64,000 bases of DNA, from positions 682,001 to 746,000 of the forward strand of contig JAIXYZ010000013.1 in the NCBI GenBank assembly GCA_027489955.1, written 5' to 3'. The notes under the pieces are model-generated. The model was not told the origin of the DNA, did no database searches, and worked only from the letters and a program-made list of their open reading frames with translations. A program made the translations under genes and the position numbers. This document shows, in pieces, positions 4,511 to 55,354 of the stretch (position 1 is the first letter of the stretch; the number at the start of each line of letters is the position of its first letter). Source of the stretch: Hyphomicrobiales bacterium. Lineage in GTDB: Bacteria; Pseudomonadota; Alphaproteobacteria; Rhizobiales; Beijerinckiaceae.

Positions 4511-5089
4511 TCAGAGCGAGCGGCTGCCCGGCTTGACGGCCGGCATGCTCGCCAGGTCTGGCGGGAGGTCGTCCGGCTTGTAGGTAGGGATATCCAGCGA
4601 GGCAAGCGAAACGAGAGGCACGCCCACATCGGCCTTTCCGCCAGACCGGTCGATGAGGCAGGCTGCGCCCAGAAGCTCGCCCGGATGCTGGGAGATCGCG
4701 GCGATGCACTCGCGCGAGGACAGCCCGGTCGTGACGATGTCCTCCACCATGACGACGCGCGCACCGGCGGGGATCTCGAAGCCGCGACGCAGGGCGAACT
4801 GCCCGTTCTCGCGCTCCACGAAGATCGCCTTCGCGCCCAGGTGCCGCGCGGTCTCGTAGCCGGGCACGATGCCGCCGACGGCGGGCGACACCACGATGTC
4901 GACGGTGCCGAACCGGTCGCTGATCTTCGCCGCCAGCGCCTTGCACAGCCGCTCCGTCCGCACGGGATCCTGGAAGACGAACATCTTCTGCAGGAAGACC
5001 GGGCTGCGCAGTCCGGAGGAGAGGATGAAATGGCCTCTCAGCAGCGCCCCTGCCGCCTGGAATTCGGCTATGACGTCATCCTGGTTCAA
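4511..5089 (-). CDS. pyrE: Orotate phosphoribosyltransferase
   Basis: 192 residues. Converts orotate and PRPP to orotidine 5'-phosphate in pyrimidine synthesis. The PRPP-binding motif [14 protein letters not shown] is present, as are the family segments [14 protein letters not shown] and [11 protein letters not shown]. The start is taken as TTG at 5089 because a strong GGGAGG lies 7 nt upstream and the protein then has normal length; the frame is open to 5176 without a good alternative site. The enzyme is cytosolic. Confidence 0.93.
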
Positions 5090-45487: not shown

Positions 45488-46990
45488 TCAGCCCTGGGGT
45501 GCCACTTGCGGCCCGCGGGCGCGGCGCAGGAGCCAGGCCGCGACGGGCCAGAGCAGGGCCGAGATCGTCAGCGCCGCCAGGACCATGGAGACCGGCCGCT
45601 GCACGAAGGGCAGGATGCTGCCGTCGGACTTGATCAGCGAAGTCACGAGGTTCTGCTCCACCATCGTGCCCATGACGATGCCGAGGACCAGCGCCGCCAC
45701 GGGGAAGCCGTGCTTCTCCATGACGAAGCCGATGAGCCCGAAGGCGGCCGCGGTCGTGATGGCGAACAGGTTGTTCCCGCTGGCGAAGGTGCCGACCGCG
45801 CAGAGCAGCAGCACGACGGCCATGATGTAGGCCCGCGGCACGCGCAGCACCTGCGCCGAGGCGCGGATCATCAGGATGCCCAGCGGGATCATGATGATGT
45901 TGGCCAGCAGGAAGATCAGGTAGATGGCGTACATGCTGGACGCGTTGCTGGTGAACAGCGTCGGGCCGGGGTTGAGGCCCTTCATGTAGAGCACGCCGAT
46001 GGCGATGGCGGTGATCGTGTCGCCCGGGATGCCGAAGATGAGCGAGGGCACCCAGGCGCTCGCCACGGCCGCGTTGTTGCTGGCGCCGGCTTCCACCAGC
46101 CCTTCGGGATGGCCCGTGCCGAACTTCTTCGGCTCCTTGGAGAAGCGCTTGGAGATGGAGTAGCTGATCCAGGCGGCCATGTCGGCGCCCGCGCCCGGCA
46201 GGGCGCCGACGATGACGCCCACGACGTTGCCGCGCGCCTGCTGGACGGGATAGCGCTTGGTCAGGGCGATCTGGCCGGCGAGGATCGAACCGAACTTGCG
46301 CTTCGGAACCGGCGGCGGGTCGGGCGTCAGCATCGCGCGCATCACCTGCGACACGGCGAACATGCCGACGAGGGCTGCGATCACGTCGATGCCGCCCAAA
46401 AGGTCCGGCACGCCGAAGGTGAACCGCGCCACGCCGGCGGGATTCTCCACGCCGATGCAGGCGACGGCCAGGCCCAGAAGGACGGACGCGATGGCCTTGA
46501 TCGGCGAGGCGCGTGCGACGAGCGTCGCGCACATCAGGCCCAGAAACGCGAGCCAGAAATACTCGAACGTCGAGAAGTTGAGCGCGAACTCCGCCAGCGT
46601 CGGCGCGAGTACCGACAGCGCCAGGGTACCGGCGATGCCGCCGAGCGCGCTGAACCACAGGCAGATCCCGAGGGCCAGCTCGGGCTGGCCCTTGCGCGTC
46701 ATCTGGTAGGCTTCGTCGGTATAGGCAGCCGAGGCGGGCGTTCCGGGGATGCGCAGCAGGCAGCCGGGGATGTCGCCGGCGAAGATCGCCATGCCGGACG
46801 CGGAGATGATCGCGGCGACCGCGGCGATCGGGGACATGTAATAGGTGATCGGGACCAGAAGCGCGGTCGCCATCGTGGCGGACAGGCCGGGCAGGGCGCC
46901 GACCACGAGCCCGTAGGCGGACGCCACGAGGATCGTGACCAGCACGTCCGGCTGGAGAACGAGGCGGAATGCGTCGATAAGGACATCCAT
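45488..46990 (-). CDS. tctA: Tripartite tricarboxylate transporter large permease TctA
   Basis: 500 residues, about eleven to twelve membrane helices. The family repeats GALPGLSATMATALLVPITY and GALPGAGADMAAWISYSISK, and GIPGDTITAI, are diagnostic of TctA. With TctB it forms the membrane part of a secondary transporter fed by TctC. It starts 4 nt after tctB and ends before a strong terminator. The substrate is not citrate by default; context suggests a sugar acid. Confidence 0.93.
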   Translation of the reverse strand: MDVLIDAFRLVLQPDVLVTILVASAYGLVVGALPGLSATMATALLVPITYYMSPIAAVAAIISASGMAIFAGDIPGCLLRIPGTPASAAYTDEAYQMTRKGQPELALGICLWFSALGGIAGTLALSVLAPTLAEFALNFSTFEYFWLAFLGLMCATLVARASPIKAIASVLLGLAVACIGVENPAGVARFTFGVPDLLGGIDVIAALVGMFAVSQVMRAMLTPDPPPVPKRKFGSILAGQIALTKRYPVQQARGNVVGVIVGALPGAGADMAAWISYSISKRFSKEPKKFGTGHPEGLVEAGASNNAAVASAWVPSLIFGIPGDTITAIAIGVLYMKGLNPGPTLFTSNASSMYAIYLIFLLANIIMIPLGILMIRASAQVLRVPRAYIMAVVLLLCAVGTFASGNNLFAITTAAAFGLIGFVMEKHGFPVAALVLGIVMGTMVEQNLVTSLIKSDGSILPFVQRPVSMVLAALTISALLWPVAAWLLRRARGPQVAPQG

Positions 46991-46994
46991 GGCG

Positions 46995-47483
46995 TCACCA
47001 GGGGGCTGGCAGCAGCCCCGGCGCGAGCGGAACGCGCAGCAGGCTGGCGAAGATGAAATGGATCAGCGGCGAGGCCACGAGGGCGAGCAGGGCCGCGCGG
47101 CCGGGCCGGGCGCCCAGCGCCAGGGCCATGACCAGGACGATGACCGCGGCGACGATGAGGAAGCCCAGGGTCTTGATCGTGAAAACGTAGAACAGGAGCA
47201 GCGCGATCGGCAGCGCCGCGCGAAGGACCTGGACGGGCAGTGCCGGCGGCGGGGGAGGCGCAGGGCCATCGCCCTCGGTCACGATGACCTCTTCGTCCTC
47301 CAGCGACCGGCCGACGCCCATCGCGATCAGGAAGCCGCAGAGAACGAGCCCCGCGCCGATGACGGTGGGAAAGATGCTGGGGCCGATCTGCTGTCCCGGC
47401 ATGGCCGGCAGGCCGCTGGCACCCACGATCAGCGCGACGCCGATCAACCCGGTGACGACGCCCGAAATGCGGTCTGATGTCAT
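46995..47483 (-). CDS. tctB: Tripartite tricarboxylate transporter small permease TctB
   Basis: 162 residues from ATG 47483 (GGAAA upstream). Four hydrophobic helices with an acidic, proline-rich loop (SLEDEEVIVTEGDG, then PAPPPPPALP) after the second. Matches TctB in size and topology. The open frame extends upstream through an intercistronic hairpin and is not used. Confidence 0.88.
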   Translation of the reverse strand: MTSDRISGVVTGLIGVALIVGASGLPAMPGQQIGPSIFPTVIGAGLVLCGFLIAMGVGRSLEDEEVIVTEGDGPAPPPPPALPVQVLRAALPIALLLFYVFTIKTLGFLIVAAVIVLVMALALGARPGRAALLALVASPLIHFIFASLLRVPLAPGLLPAPW

Positions 47484-47505
47484 GGCTGTTTCCGCGTGTG
47501 AAAGA

Positions 47506-47538
47506 TGCCGCCGCCATGCATTGCACATGGCGGCGGCA
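47506..47538 (-). promoter_or_regulatory. Intercistronic RNA hairpin between tctC and tctB
   Basis: Perfect 13-bp arms TGCCGCCGCCATG (47506-47518) and CATGGCGGCGGCA (47526-47538) with a 7-nt loop. Only a short T-containing tract (TCTTTC) follows on the minus strand, so it is more likely an mRNA-stabilising or partly terminating hairpin than a full terminator. Confidence 0.72.
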
Positions 47539-47614
47539 GTCGACACATCCGTCGCCGGTCACGGGAGGACGCTACCGGCTCCCCGGCGGACGTGCCGGTT
47601 CCCTCCTGGAAGGA

Positions 47615-48604
47615 TCAGGCGCGCTGCAGCGCCTTGATGACTTCGCCCATCCGCTTGCTTTCAGCGTCCATGAACTTGGCGAAGTCGGCCCCGGAATAGT
47701 ACAGCTTGCCGAAGCCGCGGCTCTCGGCGAAGTCGTTGAATTCCTTGGACTTGAACGACTCGTCGATGGCCTTGACGAGGGCCGCCGTCACGTTCGCGGG
47801 CAGGTTCTTGGGCGCCGCCAGGCCGCGCCAGGCGCCGGCCGTGTAGTCGATGCCCATGGCTTCCTTCAGCGTCGGCACGTTCGGGAAGACCGGGTTCCGG
47901 TCCGCCGACATGAGCACGATCGTCTTCGTCTTGCCGGCCTCGGCGAGGGCGCGGCCCTCCGGCGCGGAGCAGCAGACGATGTCGAGACCGCCGGCCGCCA
48001 AGTCCTGCATCGCAGGCGCCGAGCCGTTGGAAGGCACCCAGGCGACGTGGTCGAACTTCAGGCCCATCGCCTGCAGCCAGCCGATCAGGCCGATATGCCA
48101 AATGCCGCCCTGGCCGGTGCCGGACGCCTTGATCTTGCCGGCTGGCGCCGCCTTGATCGCGTCGGCGAGGGTCTTGATGTCCTTGTAGGGACCGTCCGCC
48201 TTCACGTGGATGGCCGGCGGGTCGGACATCAGGAGGGCGAGGGGGGTGTAGTCGGCGGGCGTGAGCTGCGTCAGCCCCTGGTGATGCATCATCGCGATTT
48301 CGACGGTCACCATGCCGATCGTGTAGCCGTCGGCGTCGGCGGTCGCGATGGCCGAATGGCCGACCACGCCGGAGCCGCCGGTGCGGTTCACCACCGCGAC
48401 GGGCTGCTTCAGCTCCTTCTCCATCAGCGCGGCGATGCTGCGCGCGGTCGCATCGGTGCCGCCGCCCGCGCCCCACGGCACGACCATCGTGATCGGCCGG
48501 TTCGGGAAATTGCCGCTCTGGGCGAAAGAGGGCCGCACGCCAAGGCCGGCCAGAGCCGCACCCGCACCGGTCGCGGCCAGGAATTTGCGTCGATTGATCG
48601 TCAT
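47615..48604 (-). CDS. tctC: Tripartite tricarboxylate transporter substrate-binding protein TctC/Bug
   Basis: 329 residues. Tat-type signal peptide (NRRKFLAATGAGAALAGLG, cleavage near FAQ), so it is exported folded. Bug-family features: FPNRPITMVVPWGAGGGTDATAR at the start and LKEAMGIDYTAGAWRGLAAP. Periplasmic solute receptor, first gene of tctCBA. A promoter-like TTGACA and an inverted repeat lie upstream. Ligand unknown; the divergent operon suggests an acid sugar. Confidence 0.92.
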   Translation of the reverse strand: MTINRRKFLAATGAGAALAGLGVRPSFAQSGNFPNRPITMVVPWGAGGGTDATARSIAALMEKELKQPVAVVNRTGGSGVVGHSAIATADADGYTIGMVTVEIAMMHHQGLTQLTPADYTPLALLMSDPPAIHVKADGPYKDIKTLADAIKAAPAGKIKASGTGQGGIWHIGLIGWLQAMGLKFDHVAWVPSNGSAPAMQDLAAGGLDIVCCSAPEGRALAEAGKTKTIVLMSADRNPVFPNVPTLKEAMGIDYTAGAWRGLAAPKNLPANVTAALVKAIDESFKSKEFNDFAESRGFGKLYYSGADFAKFMDAESKRMGEVIKALQRA

Positions 48605-48651: not shown

Positions 48652-48708
48652 TAGTTGAAAAGTTTTTCCAACTAGATCGTGTTTCACCACGGAATGGCCG
48701 CTTGTCAA
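48652..48708 (-). promoter_or_regulatory. Candidate tctC promoter and operator
   Basis: TTGACA on the minus strand at 48708-48703; the -10 near 48685-48680 is weak (GAAACA). A 23-nt imperfect palindrome with arms TAGTTG (48652-48657) and CAACTA (48669-48674) is centred about 43 bp downstream of the -35 box, near the expected transcription start. Read on the minus strand it contains TTGGAAAAA, close to the IclR-family half-site TGGAAA. Confidence 0.5.
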
Positions 48709-48764
48709 CCCGTGCGCACAGCCTGATGCAGCAAAAAATAGAATGTTCCGCTCAGGCCCTCGTA

Positions 48765-48821
48765 TTGACAGGCCTCATGCGTTTGGCACATGGAAGAGGC
48801 ATCTGGAAAGGCAATCCAGAT
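48765..48821 (+). promoter_or_regulatory. Candidate IclR-operon promoter and operator
   Basis: TTGACA at 48765-48770 with a poor -10 (ACATGG, 48788-48793), then a perfect 7-bp inverted repeat ATCTGGA (48801-48807) / TCCAGAT (48815-48821), centred about 43 bp after the -35 box. It contains TGGAAA like the tctC-side repeat. Confidence 0.45.
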
Positions 48822-49085
48822 TAATAAGGGTGCAGGCACACAAGCCGCATCCGCGGGAAACGGGCGGTCCGCGAGGGCTGCGCACAAGGAGAATCGCGTG
48901 ATGCCCCATGGCGCATCCCGATGCGGACAGTCGACGCCATCGAGCGCTCTGCTGCCAGTCCTGCTTTCGGTCCGCCGCGCAGAGCGGCTGGCGCGCTTCG
49001 CGCTTCGTCCCGTAGCCTCGCGCGCCGCAGGCGGTATCGGTCATGCTTGGCCGCTGATCTGACGGAGCCGAATCGAGGACACCCC

Positions 49086-49898
49086 ATGTCGAATTTTTCC
49101 GCATCCTCCGCCGAACGGTGCCTGGCCATCCTGGAACTGCTCGTCAACGAGCCGGGTGGCCTGGCCCTGTCCATCATCGCCCAGCGCCTGTCGCTGCCCG
49201 TCAGCGCGACGCACCGGCTGCTCGGCGTCTTGGTCGCGCGTCGCTACGTGCGCCAGGACCCGGTTTCGGAGGTCTACGAGGCGACGATGACCGTCGCGGC
49301 GCTCGGCATGAGGCTTCTGGCGGGCACCAATCTCAGCGAGATCTGCCAGCCGATCATGGACGAACTGGCCGCGCAGACGGGCGAGCTCGTCCGCCTCTCG
49401 GTGCTCGAGGACAGCCGGCTGACCTGGGTGGCCAAGGCGCAGGGTGCCCGCACCTCGATCCGCTACGACCCGATCAGCGGCCGCGATGTCCCGCTTCACG
49501 TCACCGCCATGGGCAAGGCCTGGCTCGCCACGCTGCCTGAGGACGAGGCGGTGCGCCTTGTGCTGGACCGCGGCTTCGGCGGGGATCTCATCGGCCCGCG
49601 CGCCATCCGCACGGTCGAGGCGCTGCGCGACGAATTGCGGCTGACCCGCGACCGGGGCTTCGCCCTGGTCGTGGAGGAGGCGGAGGAGGGGATCTCCGCC
49701 ATTTCCATGGTCGTTCGCGATGCCTCCCGCCGTGACCGTCCGGTCGTCGGCGCGCTGGCCGTCGCCGGCCCCACCTTCCGCCTCGATCACGACCGGCTGG
49801 TCGGCTTCGCGCCCCAGCTCCGGGCCGCGGTCGAGGAAATGGGCCGGCTCTGGCCGGCCCGCGCCTACCACGCCCAGATGACCGGAGACGTTGCGTGA
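49086..49898 (+). CDS. IclR family transcriptional regulator
   Basis: 270 residues from ATG 49086 (GAGGA upstream). An N-terminal winged helix (AERCLAILELLVNEPGGLAL, LSLPVSATHRLLGVL) and a C-terminal effector domain (HVTAMGKAWLATLPE, GFALVVEEAEEGISAIS). It is the first gene of the catabolic operon and divergent from tctCBA; the likely job is substrate-dependent control of both. Its stop overlaps the next start as GTGA. Confidence 0.92.
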   Translation: MSNFSASSAERCLAILELLVNEPGGLALSIIAQRLSLPVSATHRLLGVLVARRYVRQDPVSEVYEATMTVAALGMRLLAGTNLSEICQPIMDELAAQTGELVRLSVLEDSRLTWVAKAQGARTSIRYDPISGRDVPLHVTAMGKAWLATLPEDEAVRLVLDRGFGGDLIGPRAIRTVEALRDELRLTRDRGFALVVEEAEEGISAISMVVRDASRRDRPVVGALAVAGPTFRLDHDRLVGFAPQLRAAVEEMGRLWPARAYHAQMTGDVA

Positions 49899-50734
49899 AC
49901 GTGACTGCCCCCGCCACCCTTGCCGCCGACGAGGTCGCCTTCGTCTCCGGCAGGACCCGCCTCTATGGCATCGTCGGCCATCCGATCGAGCAGGTTCGCT
50001 CGCCGGAAATGGTCACGGCCGAGCTCCATGGACGCGGAGCCGACGCGATCCTGCTCCCGATCCACGTTCTGCCGGAGGACTTCGACACCGTCCTGCCGAA
50101 CCTGCTGAAAGTGGCCAATCTCGACGGCCTCATCTTCACGATTCCCTTCAAGGCCGCGGCCCTCGCCCTGTGCGACGAGCTCGGGCCGCAGGCGTCGGTG
50201 GTCGGCGCGATCAACGCCCTGACGCGGCGCGAAGGCGGCGGCTGGAAGGGCGAGATCTTCGACGGACTGGGCTGCGTGGAAGGGTTCCGCAGGCGCGGCA
50301 TTCCCTTCGCGGGCCGCCGCGTGATGCTCATCGGCACTGGCGGCGCAGGCTCGGCCATCGGTGTCGCCGTGGCGTTCCAGAAGCCGCAATCCATCCGCGT
50401 GTTCGACATGGACGAAGGCCGTTCGCGCGATCTCGCGGAGCGCATCGCCAAGGTCGATCCGGCCATTCGCGTGGAGATCGGCGCGCCGACGGTGGACGAC
50501 ATCGACATCCTGCTGAACGCCTCTCCGGTCGGCATGCTCGGCGATCCGCGCCGTCCCATCGCCGCCGAGACGCTGCCCGCTTCGCTCACCGTCTTCGACG
50601 CCATCGTGAAGCCCGAGACCACGCCGCTGCTGGCGCTGGCGGAATCCTGCGGCTGCACGGTCGTGCGCGGCCGCGAGATGATGCGCGGCCAGATCGCGTC
50701 GATCGTCGACTATTTCGGCCACGCCCGCGCCTGA
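49895..50734 (+). CDS. AroE-like (shikimate dehydrogenase family) NAD(P)-dependent dehydrogenase
   Basis: 279 residues from GTG 49895. The fold is AroE: YGIVGHPIEQVRSPEM near 24-39, TIPFK with the catalytic lysine (Lys86), Asn107, the catalytic aspartate (Asp123 in IFDGLG) and a Rossmann loop GTGGAGSA (147-154). Several shikimate contacts differ from E. coli AroE: the first serine of S-x-S is Val34, the asparagine before T-x-P is Ile80, and the residue before the catalytic aspartate is Phe122. Location in a sugar-acid operon argues for a catabolic dehydrogenase on another hydroxy acid rather than aromatic amino acid synthesis. Confidence 0.8.
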   Translation: MNVTAPATLAADEVAFVSGRTRLYGIVGHPIEQVRSPEMVTAELHGRGADAILLPIHVLPEDFDTVLPNLLKVANLDGLIFTIPFKAAALALCDELGPQASVVGAINALTRREGGGWKGEIFDGLGCVEGFRRRGIPFAGRRVMLIGTGGAGSAIGVAVAFQKPQSIRVFDMDEGRSRDLAERIAKVDPAIRVEIGAPTVDDIDILLNASPVGMLGDPRRPIAAETLPASLTVFDAIVKPETTPLLALAESCGCTVVRGREMMRGQIASIVDYFGHARA

Positions 50735-50776
50735 TCGGCCGGCGGCCCCCCTTTTCGGACCAGAAGGATAAGAACC

Positions 50777-51646
50777 ATGAAGTTTCTTCGTTACGGTCAG
50801 CCCGGCGCCGAGAAGCCCGGTGTCCTGGACGCCGACGGCCGCATCCGCGACCTGTCCGCCCGCATCCGCGATTTCGCCCCCGATACGCTGGCCGACGGCA
50901 GCTTCGCGCGCCTGGCCTCGACGCTGACGGCGTCCGAGATCGCCGCCCTGCCGGTCGTGTCCGGCGAGCCGCGCATCGGACCGTGCCTGTCGCGCGTCGC
51001 GAACTTCATCGCCATCGGCCTGAACTATGCCGAGCACGCCACCGAGACCGACGCCGAGATTCCCGAGGAGCCCATCCTGTTCAACAAGGCGCCGTCCTGC
51101 ATCACGGGGCCTTATGACGACGTGTTCATTCCGCCGGGCTCGGACAAGACCGACTGGGAAGTCGAGCTCGCCTTCGTCATCGGCAAGGGCGGCACGTTCA
51201 TCGAGGAGAAGGACGCTCTCTCGCACGTCGCGGCCTATTTCATCTGCAACGACGTGTCGGAGCGGGGCTACCAGCTCGATCGCGGCGGCCAGTGGGTCAA
51301 GGGCAAGTGCTTCCCGAGCTTCGGCCCGATCGGCCCGTGGCTCGTCACGCCCGACGAGATCGCCGACATCCAGAACGTTCGCCTCTGGATGGAGGTGAAC
51401 GGTGAGCGGGTGCAGAACTCGTCCACCAAGACGATGATCTTCCCCATCGCGCATCTGGTCTCCTACCTCTCGCGCTTCATGATCCTGGAGCCGGGCGACG
51501 TCGTCACCACCGGCACGCCCCCCGGCGTCGGCCTCGGCTTCAAGCCGCCGCGCTATCTCAAGGCGGGCGACGTGATGCGCCTCGGCATCGACGGGCTGGG
51601 CGAGCAGAAGCAGACGACCCGCGCCTGGGCCGCCAACGCCGCCTGA
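50777..51646 (+). CDS. Fumarylacetoacetate hydrolase (FAH) family protein
   Basis: 289 residues. The FAH core is seen in IAIGLNYAEHATE, the metal-binding acids of DWEVELAFVIG and the segment GKCFPSFGPIGPWLVTP, then TGTPPGVGLG. This subgroup includes diketo-deoxy-sugar-acid hydrolases and acylpyruvases, which cleave a C-C bond next to a carbonyl. AAGGA precedes the ATG. It is an extra enzyme relative to the minimal erythronate pathway. Confidence 0.9.
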   Translation: MKFLRYGQPGAEKPGVLDADGRIRDLSARIRDFAPDTLADGSFARLASTLTASEIAALPVVSGEPRIGPCLSRVANFIAIGLNYAEHATETDAEIPEEPILFNKAPSCITGPYDDVFIPPGSDKTDWEVELAFVIGKGGTFIEEKDALSHVAAYFICNDVSERGYQLDRGGQWVKGKCFPSFGPIGPWLVTPDEIADIQNVRLWMEVNGERVQNSSTKTMIFPIAHLVSYLSRFMILEPGDVVTTGTPPGVGLGFKPPRYLKAGDVMRLGIDGLGEQKQTTRAWAANAA

Positions 51647-51703
51647 GCCATGGGCCGGCGCGCAGCCGGCCCAACCCTTCGTTACGACCAGGGAGGCGCA
51701 TTC

Positions 51704-52678
51704 ATGCGCATCGTGATCCTCGGCGCGGCCGGCATGATCGGCCGCAAGCTCGCGCTTCGCCTCGGCGCGCTCGGCGCGCTCGCCGCCCGGCCCGTCACCG
51801 GCATGCTGCTGGTCGACCGGATCGAGCCGCAGGGGCTTGCCGCCCCCTTCGCCGTGGAGACGCGCGCCGCCGACATCACCGATCCGGCGGCCCTGGCGGA
51901 TCTCGCCGCCTGGCGCCCCGATGCGGTGTTCCACCTGGCGGCCATCGTTTCGGGCGAGGCGGAGGCCGACTTCGAGCGCGGCTACGCGGTGAACCTCGAC
52001 GCGACGCGGCACCTTCTTGACGCGCTGAAGGCGGCGCAATGCCGTCCGCGCCTCGTTTTCGCATCCTCGCTGGCTGTCTACGGCGTGCCGCTGCCGGATG
52101 TCGTGCCCGACGACTTCAACCTGACGCCGCGTTCGTCCTATGGCGCCCAGAAGGCCATCGGCGAGCTGCTGGTCGCCGATTATTCCCGCAAGGGTTTCGT
52201 CGACGGAATCTCGCTGCGGCTGCCGACCATTGTCGTGCGGCCGGGCGCGCCCAACCGGGCCGCCTCCAGCTTCCTGTCGGGCATCATCCGCGAGCCGCTG
52301 AACGGCCTGTCCGCTGCCCTGCCGGTCAAGCGGTCGATGCGGACCTGGATCGCGTCGCCCTCCGTCGCGATCGAGAGCCTGATCCATGCCGCCGGGCTGA
52401 CGCCCGAGGAGGCCGCGTCCGCCCGCTCGCTTACGGGCCGGGGCATTTCCGTCACCGTCGACGAGATGATCGACGCGCTGCGCGAAGTCGCCGGCGCGGC
52501 CGTCGTGGCGCGCATCCAGGACCAGCCCGATCCGGCGATCGAGCGGATCGTCGCGTCCTGGCCTCAGGCCTTCGCGGTCGACGCGGCCACGCGGCTCGGC
52601 TTCCCCGTCGATGGCGGCATGAAGGCCATCATCGAGGCCTATATCGCCGAGGAACTCGGCGGCCGCCGGGCGGCCTGA
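51704..52678 (+). CDS. denD: D-erythronate dehydrogenase
   Basis: 324 residues from ATG 51704 (GGGAGG upstream). Extended SDR: NAD loop GAAGMIGRKLA, serine in FASSLAVYG and the catalytic YGAQK. Matches DenD, which oxidises D-erythronate to 2-oxo-tetronate. Followed 4 nt later by otnK. Substrate is assigned from family and neighbours; a related C4 acid is possible. Confidence 0.88.
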   Translation: MRIVILGAAGMIGRKLALRLGALGALAARPVTGMLLVDRIEPQGLAAPFAVETRAADITDPAALADLAAWRPDAVFHLAAIVSGEAEADFERGYAVNLDATRHLLDALKAAQCRPRLVFASSLAVYGVPLPDVVPDDFNLTPRSSYGAQKAIGELLVADYSRKGFVDGISLRLPTIVVRPGAPNRAASSFLSGIIREPLNGLSAALPVKRSMRTWIASPSVAIESLIHAAGLTPEEAASARSLTGRGISVTVDEMIDALREVAGAAVVARIQDQPDPAIERIVASWPQAFAVDAATRLGFPVDGGMKAIIEAYIAEELGGRRAA

Positions 52679-52682
52679 CGCG

Positions 52683-53942
52683 ATGCTCATCGGCTGCATC
52701 GCGGACGACTTCACCGGCGCGTCCGACATCGCCAACACGCTCGCCAGGGGCGGGCTGGCCACCATGCAGTTCAACGGCGTACCAAAAGGTACCGCGCCGG
52801 AGGGCTGCCAGGCGGGCGTGGTCTCCCTGAAGACGCGATCGATCGCGCCCGTGGATGCGGTGACGCAGTCCCTGGCCGCTCTGGCCTGGCTGCGCGCCCA
52901 GGGCTGCCGGCAGATCGTCTTCAAGTACTGCTCCACCTTTGATTCCACGCCCGAGGGCAATATCGGCCCGGTGGCGGAGGCGCTCGCCAATGCGCTGGGC
53001 GTCAAGGGCGTGGTGGTGTGCCCGGCCTTCCCGGGCGCGGGGCGCCGCGTCTATCAGGGTCACCTGTTCGTCCATGACCGGCTCCTCAGCGAGTCGGGAA
53101 TGGAGCGCCACCCCCTGACGCCGATGACCGATCCGGACATCCGGCGCTGGCTCCGGCGCCAGACCAAGGGGGAGGTGGGGTTCGTGCCGGCCGAGACGGT
53201 GCGGCACGGCGGCAGGTCCATCGCGCTCGCCCTGCGGGATGCGGCGGCCGCCGGCCGGACGCTGGTCGTGGTCGACGCCACGTCGGATGCGGACCTCATC
53301 GCCATCGGCGAGGCCTGCGACGGCGCGGCCCTCGTCACCGGCGGGTCCGGCGTCGCCCTTGGTCTGGCGGCCAATTTCGTGCGCGCCGGGGCGCTGTCGC
53401 CGCGGCCGCCCGTTCCGGTGGCGGCGCAGGGCCCGGCCGTCGTCATCGCCGGCAGCTGCTCCGGCGCCACCCGCGGCCAGGTCGAGGTCCATGCGCGGGA
53501 CCATCCTGCCCATCGGATCGAGGTGTCGCGCGTGCTGGAGGGAACGCTCTCCCCCGCGGACATGGCCAGCCAGCTCTGGGACGAGCGTGACCGGCTGCCC
53601 ATGGTCTATTCGTCCGAGGATCCCGAGGCCGTCGCGGGCCGTCAGGCGCGGTATGGCCGGGAGGTCGTGGCCGGCGCTTTGGAGCACTTCTTCGGAAGTC
53701 TGGCCGTCTCCCTCGTCGATGCGGGCTTCCGCAGGCTGGTCGTGGCCGGCGGCGAGACGTCCGGAGCGGTCGTCACCGCCCTTGCGGCGCCCGCCCTGCG
53801 CATCGGCCCGGAGATCGACCCCGGCGTTCCCGCCTTGCAAAGCACGGGCGAGCCCGGCATCGGTATCGCGCTGAAGTCGGGAAATTTCGGCGGCCCCGAT
53901 TTCTTCGTGCGCGCCGCTGCCGCCCTGGGAGACGGGACGTGA
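52683..53942 (+). CDS. otnK: 3-oxo-tetronate kinase (DUF1537)
   Basis: 419 residues. The N-terminal substrate domain starts IGCIADDFTGASDIAN; the C-terminal nucleotide domain has VIAGSCSGATRGQV and VVAGGETSGAVV. Phosphorylates 3-oxo-tetronate to the 4-phosphate. Its stop overlaps the otnC GTG start. Confidence 0.92.
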   Translation: MLIGCIADDFTGASDIANTLARGGLATMQFNGVPKGTAPEGCQAGVVSLKTRSIAPVDAVTQSLAALAWLRAQGCRQIVFKYCSTFDSTPEGNIGPVAEALANALGVKGVVVCPAFPGAGRRVYQGHLFVHDRLLSESGMERHPLTPMTDPDIRRWLRRQTKGEVGFVPAETVRHGGRSIALALRDAAAAGRTLVVVDATSDADLIAIGEACDGAALVTGGSGVALGLAANFVRAGALSPRPPVPVAAQGPAVVIAGSCSGATRGQVEVHARDHPAHRIEVSRVLEGTLSPADMASQLWDERDRLPMVYSSEDPEAVAGRQARYGREVVAGALEHFFGSLAVSLVDAGFRRLVVAGGETSGAVVTALAAPALRIGPEIDPGVPALQSTGEPGIGIALKSGNFGGPDFFVRAAAALGDGT

Positions 53943-54571
53943 CGGCCGATCCGCGCGAGGCGCTCTGCCGCTGGGCGAAGTCCCTGTTCGACCGTGGCCT
54001 GTCGCCGGGCTCTTCCGGCAACATCACCTGCCGGTTCGAGGACGGCTTCCTCGCAACGCCCACCAATTCCTGCCTCGGCTTTCTCGATCCGCAGAGGCTC
54101 TCGGTGCTCGACGCGGAGGGCCGGCACCTGTCGGGCGACAAGCCGACGAAGGAATTGCCGCTGCATCTGGCCTATTACCGCGCGCGGCCATCCGCCGGCG
54201 CGGTCGTGCATCTTCACTCCACCTACGCGACGGCCCTGTCCTGCCTCGCCGACACGGACCCCGAAGACGCGATCCCGCCGATCACGCCCTACATCGCCAT
54301 GCGCGTCGGCCGGGTGCCGGTCCTGCCATACACCCATCCCGGCTCGGCGAACGTGGCGCCCCTGATCGAAAACCGGGCGGCCGACCACGCGGCGGTCCTG
54401 CTGGCCAATCACGGCCCCGTCGTCGCCGGGACAAGCCTCGACAGCGCGGTCTTCGCCGCCGAGGAACTGGAGGAGACCGCAAAGCTCCTCGTGCTGACGC
54501 GGGGTCTTGCGGTCCGCCGGCTGGACGAGGCAACCGTGGCGGCGCTCCAGTCTCTCTATCGGCTGAGGTGA
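53939..54571 (+). CDS. otnC: 3-oxo-tetronate 4-phosphate decarboxylase (class II aldolase family)
   Basis: 210 residues from GTG 53939. Class II aldolase/adducin fold with SGNITCR, the metal histidines in VVHLHSTYATALS and NHGPVV. Expected to release CO2 and give dihydroxyacetone phosphate. Overlaps otnK by 4 nt and is followed 3 nt later by otnI. Confidence 0.9.
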   Translation: MTADPREALCRWAKSLFDRGLSPGSSGNITCRFEDGFLATPTNSCLGFLDPQRLSVLDAEGRHLSGDKPTKELPLHLAYYRARPSAGAVVHLHSTYATALSCLADTDPEDAIPPITPYIAMRVGRVPVLPYTHPGSANVAPLIENRAADHAAVLLANHGPVVAGTSLDSAVFAAEELEETAKLLVLTRGLAVRRLDEATVAALQSLYRLR

Positions 54572-54574
54572 GAA

Positions 54575-55354
54575 ATGCCGCGCTTTTCCGCCAACGTCGC
54601 CTTCCTCTTCGCCGATGTGCCATTCCTCGAGCGCTTCAGCCGGGCGGCCGCCGCCGGCTTCCGCGCGGTGGAATTCCATTTCCCCTATGACCATCCGGCT
54701 GCGGAGATCCGCGCGCTCGTGGATCGCCACGGCCTCGCCGTGACGGCGCTCAACACCGCGCCGGGCGATGTGGAGGCGGGCGAATTCGGCCTGGCGGCGC
54801 TGCGCGGGCGCGAGGAGCATTTCGACCGGCAGTTCGACCGCGCCCTGGACTACGCCGTCGCGCTCGACTGTCCGGCGATCCACGTGCTGTCCGGCGTCGT
54901 TCCGGAGGACGGCCGCGAGGCTGCGTTGCGGACCTTTTCGGCCAACCTGGCGCGGGTCGCGCCGCGCGCATCCGCCGTGGGCAAGACGATCCTGGTGGAG
55001 CCGCTGAACACGCGCGACCGCCCGGGCTACCTCTTCTCCACCTCCGATGCGGTCGTCGCCTTTCTCGCAAGGCTCGGCCAGCCGAACGTGAAGCTGATGT
55101 TCGACTGCTACCACGTGCAAATCATGGAGGGGGACCTCATCACCCGGCTGCGGCGCCACTGGCCCCGCATCGGCCACGTGCAGGTCGCGTCGGTTCCCGA
55201 CCGGGCGGAGCCCGACACGGGCGAGATCGCGTATCCCGCCATCTTCGCGGAACTCGACCGCCTCGGCTACAAGGGCCATGTGGGCGCCGAGTACCGGCCC
55301 GCCGGACGCACCGAGGACGGTCTTGCCTGGATGGCGCCCTGGCGCGAGGAATAG
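54575..55354 (+). CDS. otnI: 2-oxo-tetronate isomerase (hydroxypyruvate isomerase family)
   Basis: 259 residues. TIM-barrel isomerase: PRFSANVAFLFADVPFLERF at the start, then KTILVEPLNTRDRPGYL and VKLMFDCYHVQIMEGDL, as in Hyi/OtnI. Interconverts 2-oxo- and 3-oxo-tetronate, linking DenD to OtnK. Last gene of the operon; no strong terminator follows. Confidence 0.9.
   Translation: MPRFSANVAFLFADVPFLERFSRAAAAGFRAVEFHFPYDHPAAEIRALVDRHGLAVTALNTAPGDVEAGEFGLAALRGREEHFDRQFDRALDYAVALDCPAIHVLSGVVPEDGREAALRTFSANLARVAPRASAVGKTILVEPLNTRDRPGYLFSTSDAVVAFLARLGQPNVKLMFDCYHVQIMEGDLITRLRRHWPRIGHVQVASVPDRAEPDTGEIAYPAIFAELDRLGYKGHVGAEYRPAGRTEDGLAWMAPWREE

Follow-up and report, generated by a model that had tools for sequence, protein, structure and literature searches.

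Conserved inverted repeats as candidate operators of an IclR-family regulator encoded between a tripartite transporter and a tetronate-type catabolic operon

In the window (that is, the whole 64-kb stretch of DNA that was analysed), the gene for an IclR-family regulator heads a run of genes on the plus strand, and is divergent from a set of minus-strand genes that encode the components of a tripartite tricarboxylate transporter (tctCBA; Table 1). The last four genes of the plus-strand run each scored above the cut-off of a model for a dedicated enzyme (NF043036, NF043033, NF043035 and NF043034), which identifies the run as a catabolic operon of the D-erythronate/L-threonate (tetronate) type. 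Two further genes of that run, located between the regulator and the four tetronate genes, encode a shikimate-dehydrogenase-like (aroE-like) protein and a protein of the fumarylacetoacetate-hydrolase (FAH) family; the best match of the latter, under its cut-off, was to the model for 2,4-didehydro-3-deoxy-L-rhamnonate hydrolase. The score of the FAH-family protein and the presence of the aroE-like gene hint at a substrate other than plain tetronate.

Table 1. Genes and candidate regulatory features at the locus (window coordinates; L005, same-genus relative; G241, genome of a second genus)
Feature	Positions	Strand	Matches and remarks
tctA	45488..46990	-	PF01970
tctB	46995..47546	-	PF07331
tctC-like solute-binding protein (Tat signal), tripartite tricarboxylate transporter	47615..48604	-	PF03401, TIGR01409
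Candidate operator core 1 (tctC side), TGGAAAAACTTTTCA on minus	48656..48670	-	Whole inverted repeat 48652-48674
TTGACA, presumed -35 box of tctCBA promoter	48703..48708	-	TGTCAA on plus; same distance in L005; 44.5 bp from site in G241
TTGACA, presumed -35 box of iclR operon promoter	48765..48770	+	TTGACA 29.5 bp from site in L005; TTGACC 43.5 bp from site, before iclR, in G241
Candidate operator core 2 (iclR side), TGGAAAGGCAATCCA	48804..48818	+	Whole inverted repeat 48801-48821
IclR-family regulator, 270 aa, recognition helix LPVSATHRLL	49086..49898	+	PF09339, PF01614 above cut-offs; start common to L005
Shikimate-dehydrogenase-like (aroE-like) protein	49895..50734	+	PF08501; under cut-offs of all 17 NCBIfam models listed
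Fumarylacetoacetate-hydrolase (FAH)-family protein	50777..51646	+	PF01557; best NCBIfam match 388.7 bits, cut-off 500
D-erythronate dehydrogenase (start putative)	51695..52678	+	NF043036, 397.4 bits, cut-off 325
3-oxo-tetronate kinase	52683..53942	+	NF043035, 525.8 bits, cut-off 350
3-oxo-tetronate 4-phosphate decarboxylase	53939..54571	+	NF043034, 294.7 bits, cut-off 250
2-oxo-tetronate isomerase	54575..55354	+	NF043033, 326.7 bits, cut-off 325

The regulator displays both the N-terminal helix-turn-helix domain and the C-terminal effector domain of the IclR family (PF09339, 52.9 bits for a cut-off of 22, and PF01614, 113.5 bits for a cut-off of 24). It falls below the cut-off of the model for the IclR of Escherichia coli, which acts on the glyoxylate bypass (NF008601, 102.1 versus 380 bits), and is not an ortholog of that protein by this measure; it likewise falls below that for BhcR (NF045644, 128 versus 350 bits), which is its best-scoring NCBIfam model.

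The 481-bp intergenic region between tctC and iclR contains a pair of TTGACA boxes and a pair of inverted repeats. An earlier note on this DNA had described the boxes, one on each strand, and an inverted repeat about 43 bp downstream of each; the boxes are read directly in the sequence, and the centre-to-centre distances to the repeats are 42.5 bp (tctC side) and 43.5 bp (iclR side). Repeat 1 (TAGTTGAAAAGTTTTTCCAACTA, centred at 48663) possesses arms at 48652-48661 and 48665-48674 that are 90% complementary, and repeat 2 (ATCTGGAaaggcaaTCCAGAT, centred at 48811) possesses 7-base arms that fold as 7 pairs, which lie under the 10-base limit of the inverted-repeat search and were read directly from the sequence. 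The hexamer TGGAAA is common to both, as that note had pointed out, on the minus strand in repeat 1 and on the plus strand in repeat 2; its statement that the repeats differ in sequence holds for their outer arms, but not for their cores, which follow a common 15-bp motif (TGGAA-N5-TTCCA) in the same register and each depart from it by one mismatch. A leader of approximately 265 bp (48822-49085), which aligns poorly with that of L005, separates repeat 2 from the iclR start codon; within it, a short frame beginning GTG ATG at 48898, preceded by AAGGAG at 48886-48891 and ending at a stop at 49062, forms part of a 90-aa frame (48790-49062).

Both boxes match the consensus of the -35 element of sigma-70-type promoters and are presumed to serve as such. 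TTGACA was observed 4 times in the window, versus 8.2 expected, and two of those occurrences are the intergenic boxes. No -10 element resembling TATAAT was found 16-18 bp from either box, a simple sigma-70 scan returned no promoter in the intergenic region, and the best matches to TATAAT in the window at spacers of 15-19 agree at 3 of 6 positions (tctC) and 2 of 6 (iclR). The start points are therefore placed from the -35 boxes alone.

Searches with the motif TGGAAN5TTCCA, allowing at most one mismatch, returned 2 matches in the window, both of them the intergenic repeats, and 22 places in the 3.13-Mb genome (including those two), for 9 with a control pattern. A looser family consensus, TGRAAN5TTYCA, again with at most one mismatch, added two places elsewhere in the window for a total of 4; at neither of those two (centred at 5033 and 54676) was TTGACA found 42-45 bp upstream. 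When the intergenic region was subjected to 20,000 dinucleotide shuffles, the looser consensus at the same tolerance occurred at least once in 648 of them and at least twice in 13, at least two TTGACA boxes appeared in 229, and in none was TTGACA followed by a site at 42-45 bp, a distance range that was chosen post hoc. The consensus reported for group 2 operators of the family (TGRAACAN1-2TGTTYCA; PMC8222616) is matched by its outer bases TGRAA/TTYCA in a 15-bp frame, exactly in site 1 and with one mismatch in site 2; its inner bases, CA-N-TG, were not found in either, where AA-A-CT and AG-G-CA are read instead. A wider pattern, TTGRAAANNNNTTTYCAA, had no match in the window's own genome with 1 mismatch; it was discarded, since it spans 18 bases versus a 17-base core and is out of register.

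The searches for relatives gave only three orthologous loci in all. A regulator search of genome contigs yielded 4 loci, one of which (L005) carries the operon, while the distant L006-L008 were left out; a search of the genus found matches in 2 of 2 genomes, namely that of the window itself and that of a relative (G022), in which the locus (L009) was taken to be the same as L005. At the level of the order (2 of 397 sampled genomes at E 1e-66, own included) and of the class (3 of 385 at E 1e-70, own included), the searches yielded only homologs of 48-49% identity; in the genus of the third genome, G241, a match was found in 1 of 17 genomes, which was G241 itself, and 69 plasmid records with a match to the regulator all displayed less than 60% identity.

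The earlier note had proposed an alignment of relatives as its check, and the tctC-side repeat passed it in both of the relatives available, being kept in register with TTGACA. In L005, whose regulator is 90% identical and whose gene order is the same, site 1, its TTGACA and the 42.5-bp spacing are retained exactly; in a gapless comparison around site 1, 24 of 29 positions are identical in the repeat and TTGACA, versus 44 of 94 in the flanks. In G241, which belongs to a second genus, the regulator is 63-64% identical, its helix LPVSATHRLL is identical, and the genes are arranged on one strand in the order tctC-tctB-tctA-iclR-aroE-FAH; TGGAAAAACATTCCA is found just before tctC, and a 13-bp inverted-repeat variant (TGGAATAATTCCT) is found before iclR, each at the distance listed in Table 1. 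The spacing on the tctC side is kept, but on the plus side of the nearest relative, where TTGACA is followed by a weaker counterpart of site 2 with two mismatches (TGGAAAAGTAATCCG), it is 29.5 rather than 43.5 bp, so that the site lies 14 bp nearer. Across the six promoters of the three genomes, the distances from TTGAC to the site are 42.5, 43.5, 42.5, 44.5 and 43.5 bp, with that single exception of 29.5 bp. Exact copies of TGRAAN5TTYCA number 4 in the window's genome, 4 in the same-genus relative and 13 in G241 (versus 1, 1 and 2 for a pattern-reversed control); in each genome one copy is located directly before tctC, and the three remaining copies of the window's genome are inside long open frames.

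A second line of comparison came from distant homologs of the regulator. A search of the family found a match at E 1e-40 or better in 52 of 298 sampled genomes, and a set of 30 loci, 41.7-48.3% identical to the window's regulator, was assembled (L011-L037 from that search, plus L038-L040) and scanned from 350 bp upstream to 30 bp inside each regulator's own gene, with the start set by alignment. The recognition helix contains SATHR, as does that of the window's regulator, in 17 of the 30, and an exact TGGAAN5TTCCA precedes the gene in 16 of those 17 versus 1 of the 13 with other helices (Fisher P 1.9e-6, a statistic that ignores the relatedness of the homologs). Sites with one mismatch in two of those 13 (L031 and L039) and with two mismatches in three (L020, L032 and L034) make this contrast one of degree. 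Of the 16 SATHR homologs with an exact site, 15 have a TTGAC that precedes the centre of that site by 48.5-50.5 bp, and a TATA-type -10 element can be read between the two in several, such as the TTGACT-17-TATACG of L016. Five open frames neighbouring four of the homologs were compared with Pfam: two resemble ABC-transporter permeases (L027 and L038) and three gave no match; from these neighbours, the site appears to follow the DNA-binding helix rather than the pathway encoded at the window's locus. Before the regulator genes of L023, L030 and L036, the exact site is itself preceded, 18 bp upstream, by a second and weaker site of the TGGAA type, a spacing that fits the 18-22 bp given for tandem IclR-family sites in PMC8222616; no such tandem site was seen by reading of the window.

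Position-specific matrices were built from sites outside the window in three ways, from 3 sites of close relatives, from 12 sites of distant homologs (picked by exact match to TGGAAN5TTCCA from an earlier, smaller homolog set) and from all 15; with each of the three, the two sites (in either order) took the top two ranks among 63,982 window positions. The earlier note had named the neighbouring IclR-family regulator as the putative binding protein, and that assignment is well founded, given the conserved tctC-side repeat and the set of SATHR helices that accompany TGGAAN5TTCCA. As judged from these comparisons, both repeats are very probably landing sites of the adjacent regulator, and the identity of the two candidate operator sites is well supported. 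A juxtaposition of boxes and repeats by chance, without function, could draw on the fact that two near-consensus sites in 64 kb are not rare (at least two matches to TGGAAN5TTCCA with at most one mismatch occurred anywhere in 11 of 100 whole-window shuffles), but is opposed by the conservation of the tctC-side site, the matrix ranks, the lack of the composite arrangement in all 20,000 intergenic shuffles and the association with SATHR, and can be regarded as extremely improbable. Scarcely more credible is the idea that the repeats function as hairpins in the RNA of the two leaders rather than as DNA sites. Both do fold (-9.8 and -7.8 kcal/mol), and the folding of site 1 was equalled by only 7 of 200 shuffles; however, folding as good was reached in 43 of 200 shuffles for site 2 and in 47 of 200 for the version of site 1 found in L005, and it is the letters of TGGAA-N5-TTCCA and their distance to TTGACA that the genomes keep, in sites that track the helix of the regulator.

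The comparison of loci also bears on the regulon. When 19 kb around the G241 regulator (L041) were searched by tblastn with the window's gene set, only tctCBA, the aroE-like gene and the FAH gene were matched; the tetronate genes of that genome are found on another contig (L046), apart from the regulator locus, with no near-consensus site (at most one mismatch) in the 13.4 kb around them, and adjoin an open frame that looks LacI-type when its N-terminal letters are read by eye. The tetronate genes of the window's genus are located downstream in the same run as iclR (49895-55354). By gene content, then, the conserved partners of the regulator are the transporter, the aroE-like gene and the FAH gene, and the ligand need not be a tetronate. 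VdtR, a regulator of erythronate use, reportedly belongs to the DeoR family.

Taken together, these comparisons indicate that the sites are conserved, that the spacing from the -35 box is conserved at tctC and that the site is associated with the recognition helix. The reading that probably accounts for them is that the two repeats are operators of the regulator encoded next to them, which would act as an autoregulatory repressor just past the start points of divergent promoters, one for tctCBA and one for the iclR operon. The proposal of the earlier note, repression in both directions by a block to the start of transcription, is thereby supported in part: the choice of binding protein is well founded, while repression, and action at both promoters, are predicted. 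If TTGACA is taken to occupy -36 to -31, the sites would cover about +3 to +17 (tctCBA) and +4 to +18 (iclR operon). In the absence of ligand, a dimer of the regulator, or a tetramer touching both sites, would sit just downstream of both start points and stop RNA polymerase from starting or leaving; the regulator would thereby limit its own operon and the transporter (that is, uptake and catabolism) together, and binding of a ligand would release it. The poor -10 boxes and the mismatch in site 2 count against this model, as do the weaker and nearer counterpart of site 2 in L005, the small number of orthologous loci (three) and the activating role ascribed to BhcR, the protein of the best-scoring NCBIfam model.

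The same features leave some room for two other arrangements. In one, only site 1 would work, site 2 being decayed or a chance match, and iclR would be transcribed from another, unregulated promoter in the long leader. The weaker site 2, the 29.5-bp spacing in L005 and the distance from site 2 to the iclR start codon speak for such an arrangement; it is nevertheless unlikely, because matrices built from outside the window place site 2 among its top two positions, such sites precede the regulator's own gene in nearly all SATHR homologs, and G241 retains a related inverted repeat at 43.5 bp from TTGACC before iclR. In the other, which appears equally hard to favour or a shade more so, the regulator would be a dual one that represses its own operon through site 2 and activates tctCBA, where weak -10 boxes would need help and so leave space for an activator. 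Against that role, the tctC-side site is located downstream of the presumed -35 box in three genomes, and activators rarely sit downstream of -35. BhcR of Paracoccus denitrificans has been described as an activator for which a dual role is suggested, and dual roles are known for other IclR-family regulators, but the putative BhcR site lies upstream of the bhcA -35 box, unlike the tctC-side site (PMC11323563).

The preferred model, repression at both promoters from sites just past the start points, has partial counterparts among characterized members of the family, and its motif type, regulator family and layout are already known. The operator of E. coli IclR, for which Table 1 of PMC8222616 gives TGGAAATNATTTCCA, shares with the window sites the half-sites TGGAA/TTCCA (as the earlier note had stated for TGGAAA), a length of 15 bp and a regulator of the same family; its inner ATNAT is not kept in the window, where AAACT and AGGCA are found. 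The motif of E. coli AllR, a repressor (PMC11323563), is given as KTTGGAAWAWTWTTCCAAC in the same table of PMC8222616; its outer TTGGAA...CAA resembles site 1 (TTGGAAAAACTTTTCAA), but it is longer than the window site, and the window's regulator reaches 85 of 406 bits with NF007548. BhcR resembles the window's regulator in being an IclR-family protein divergent from the genes that it controls, and differs in its activating role, the position of its site and the sub-threshold score noted above (PMC11323563). A precedent for the proposed mode of action is PheR of Sphingobium, an IclR-family repressor that protects -21 to +23 and thus spans the start point; it differs in its recognition element (GCAACG), in its pathway and in acting on one operon (PMC13273656).

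None of the matches listed in a literature search described this locus, or a comparable one under the control of an IclR-family protein. The general picture of the IclR family is unchanged by these observations, and the arrangement is ordinary in kind, although here well supported by comparison with relatives; it provides a testable pair of operators and a regulon for a regulator of this family at a locus for uptake and catabolism, and the link from SATHR to TGGAA-N5-TTCCA could serve operator prediction in relatives. A broader and more tentative proposal, which is conceivable but would not be our first expectation, is that IclR-family regulators of the SATHR clade use a fixed ruler, in which the operator centre is set about 43 bp past the -35 box (in orthologs linked to the tripartite transporter) or 49-50 bp past it (in other homologs), so that a dimer on a set face of the DNA just downstream of +1 represses, and that the regulator of the window's genus captured the tetronate genes. 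Alternating half-sites were also observed in G241, as ATTCC-N5-GGAAT-A-ATTCC before iclR (L010 2312-2338, minus strand) and as CCAGA-N7-TCTGG...TTCCAGA before tctC (L041 13098-13129, minus strand), and are reminiscent of the three-box IclR-family sites described in PMC8222616.
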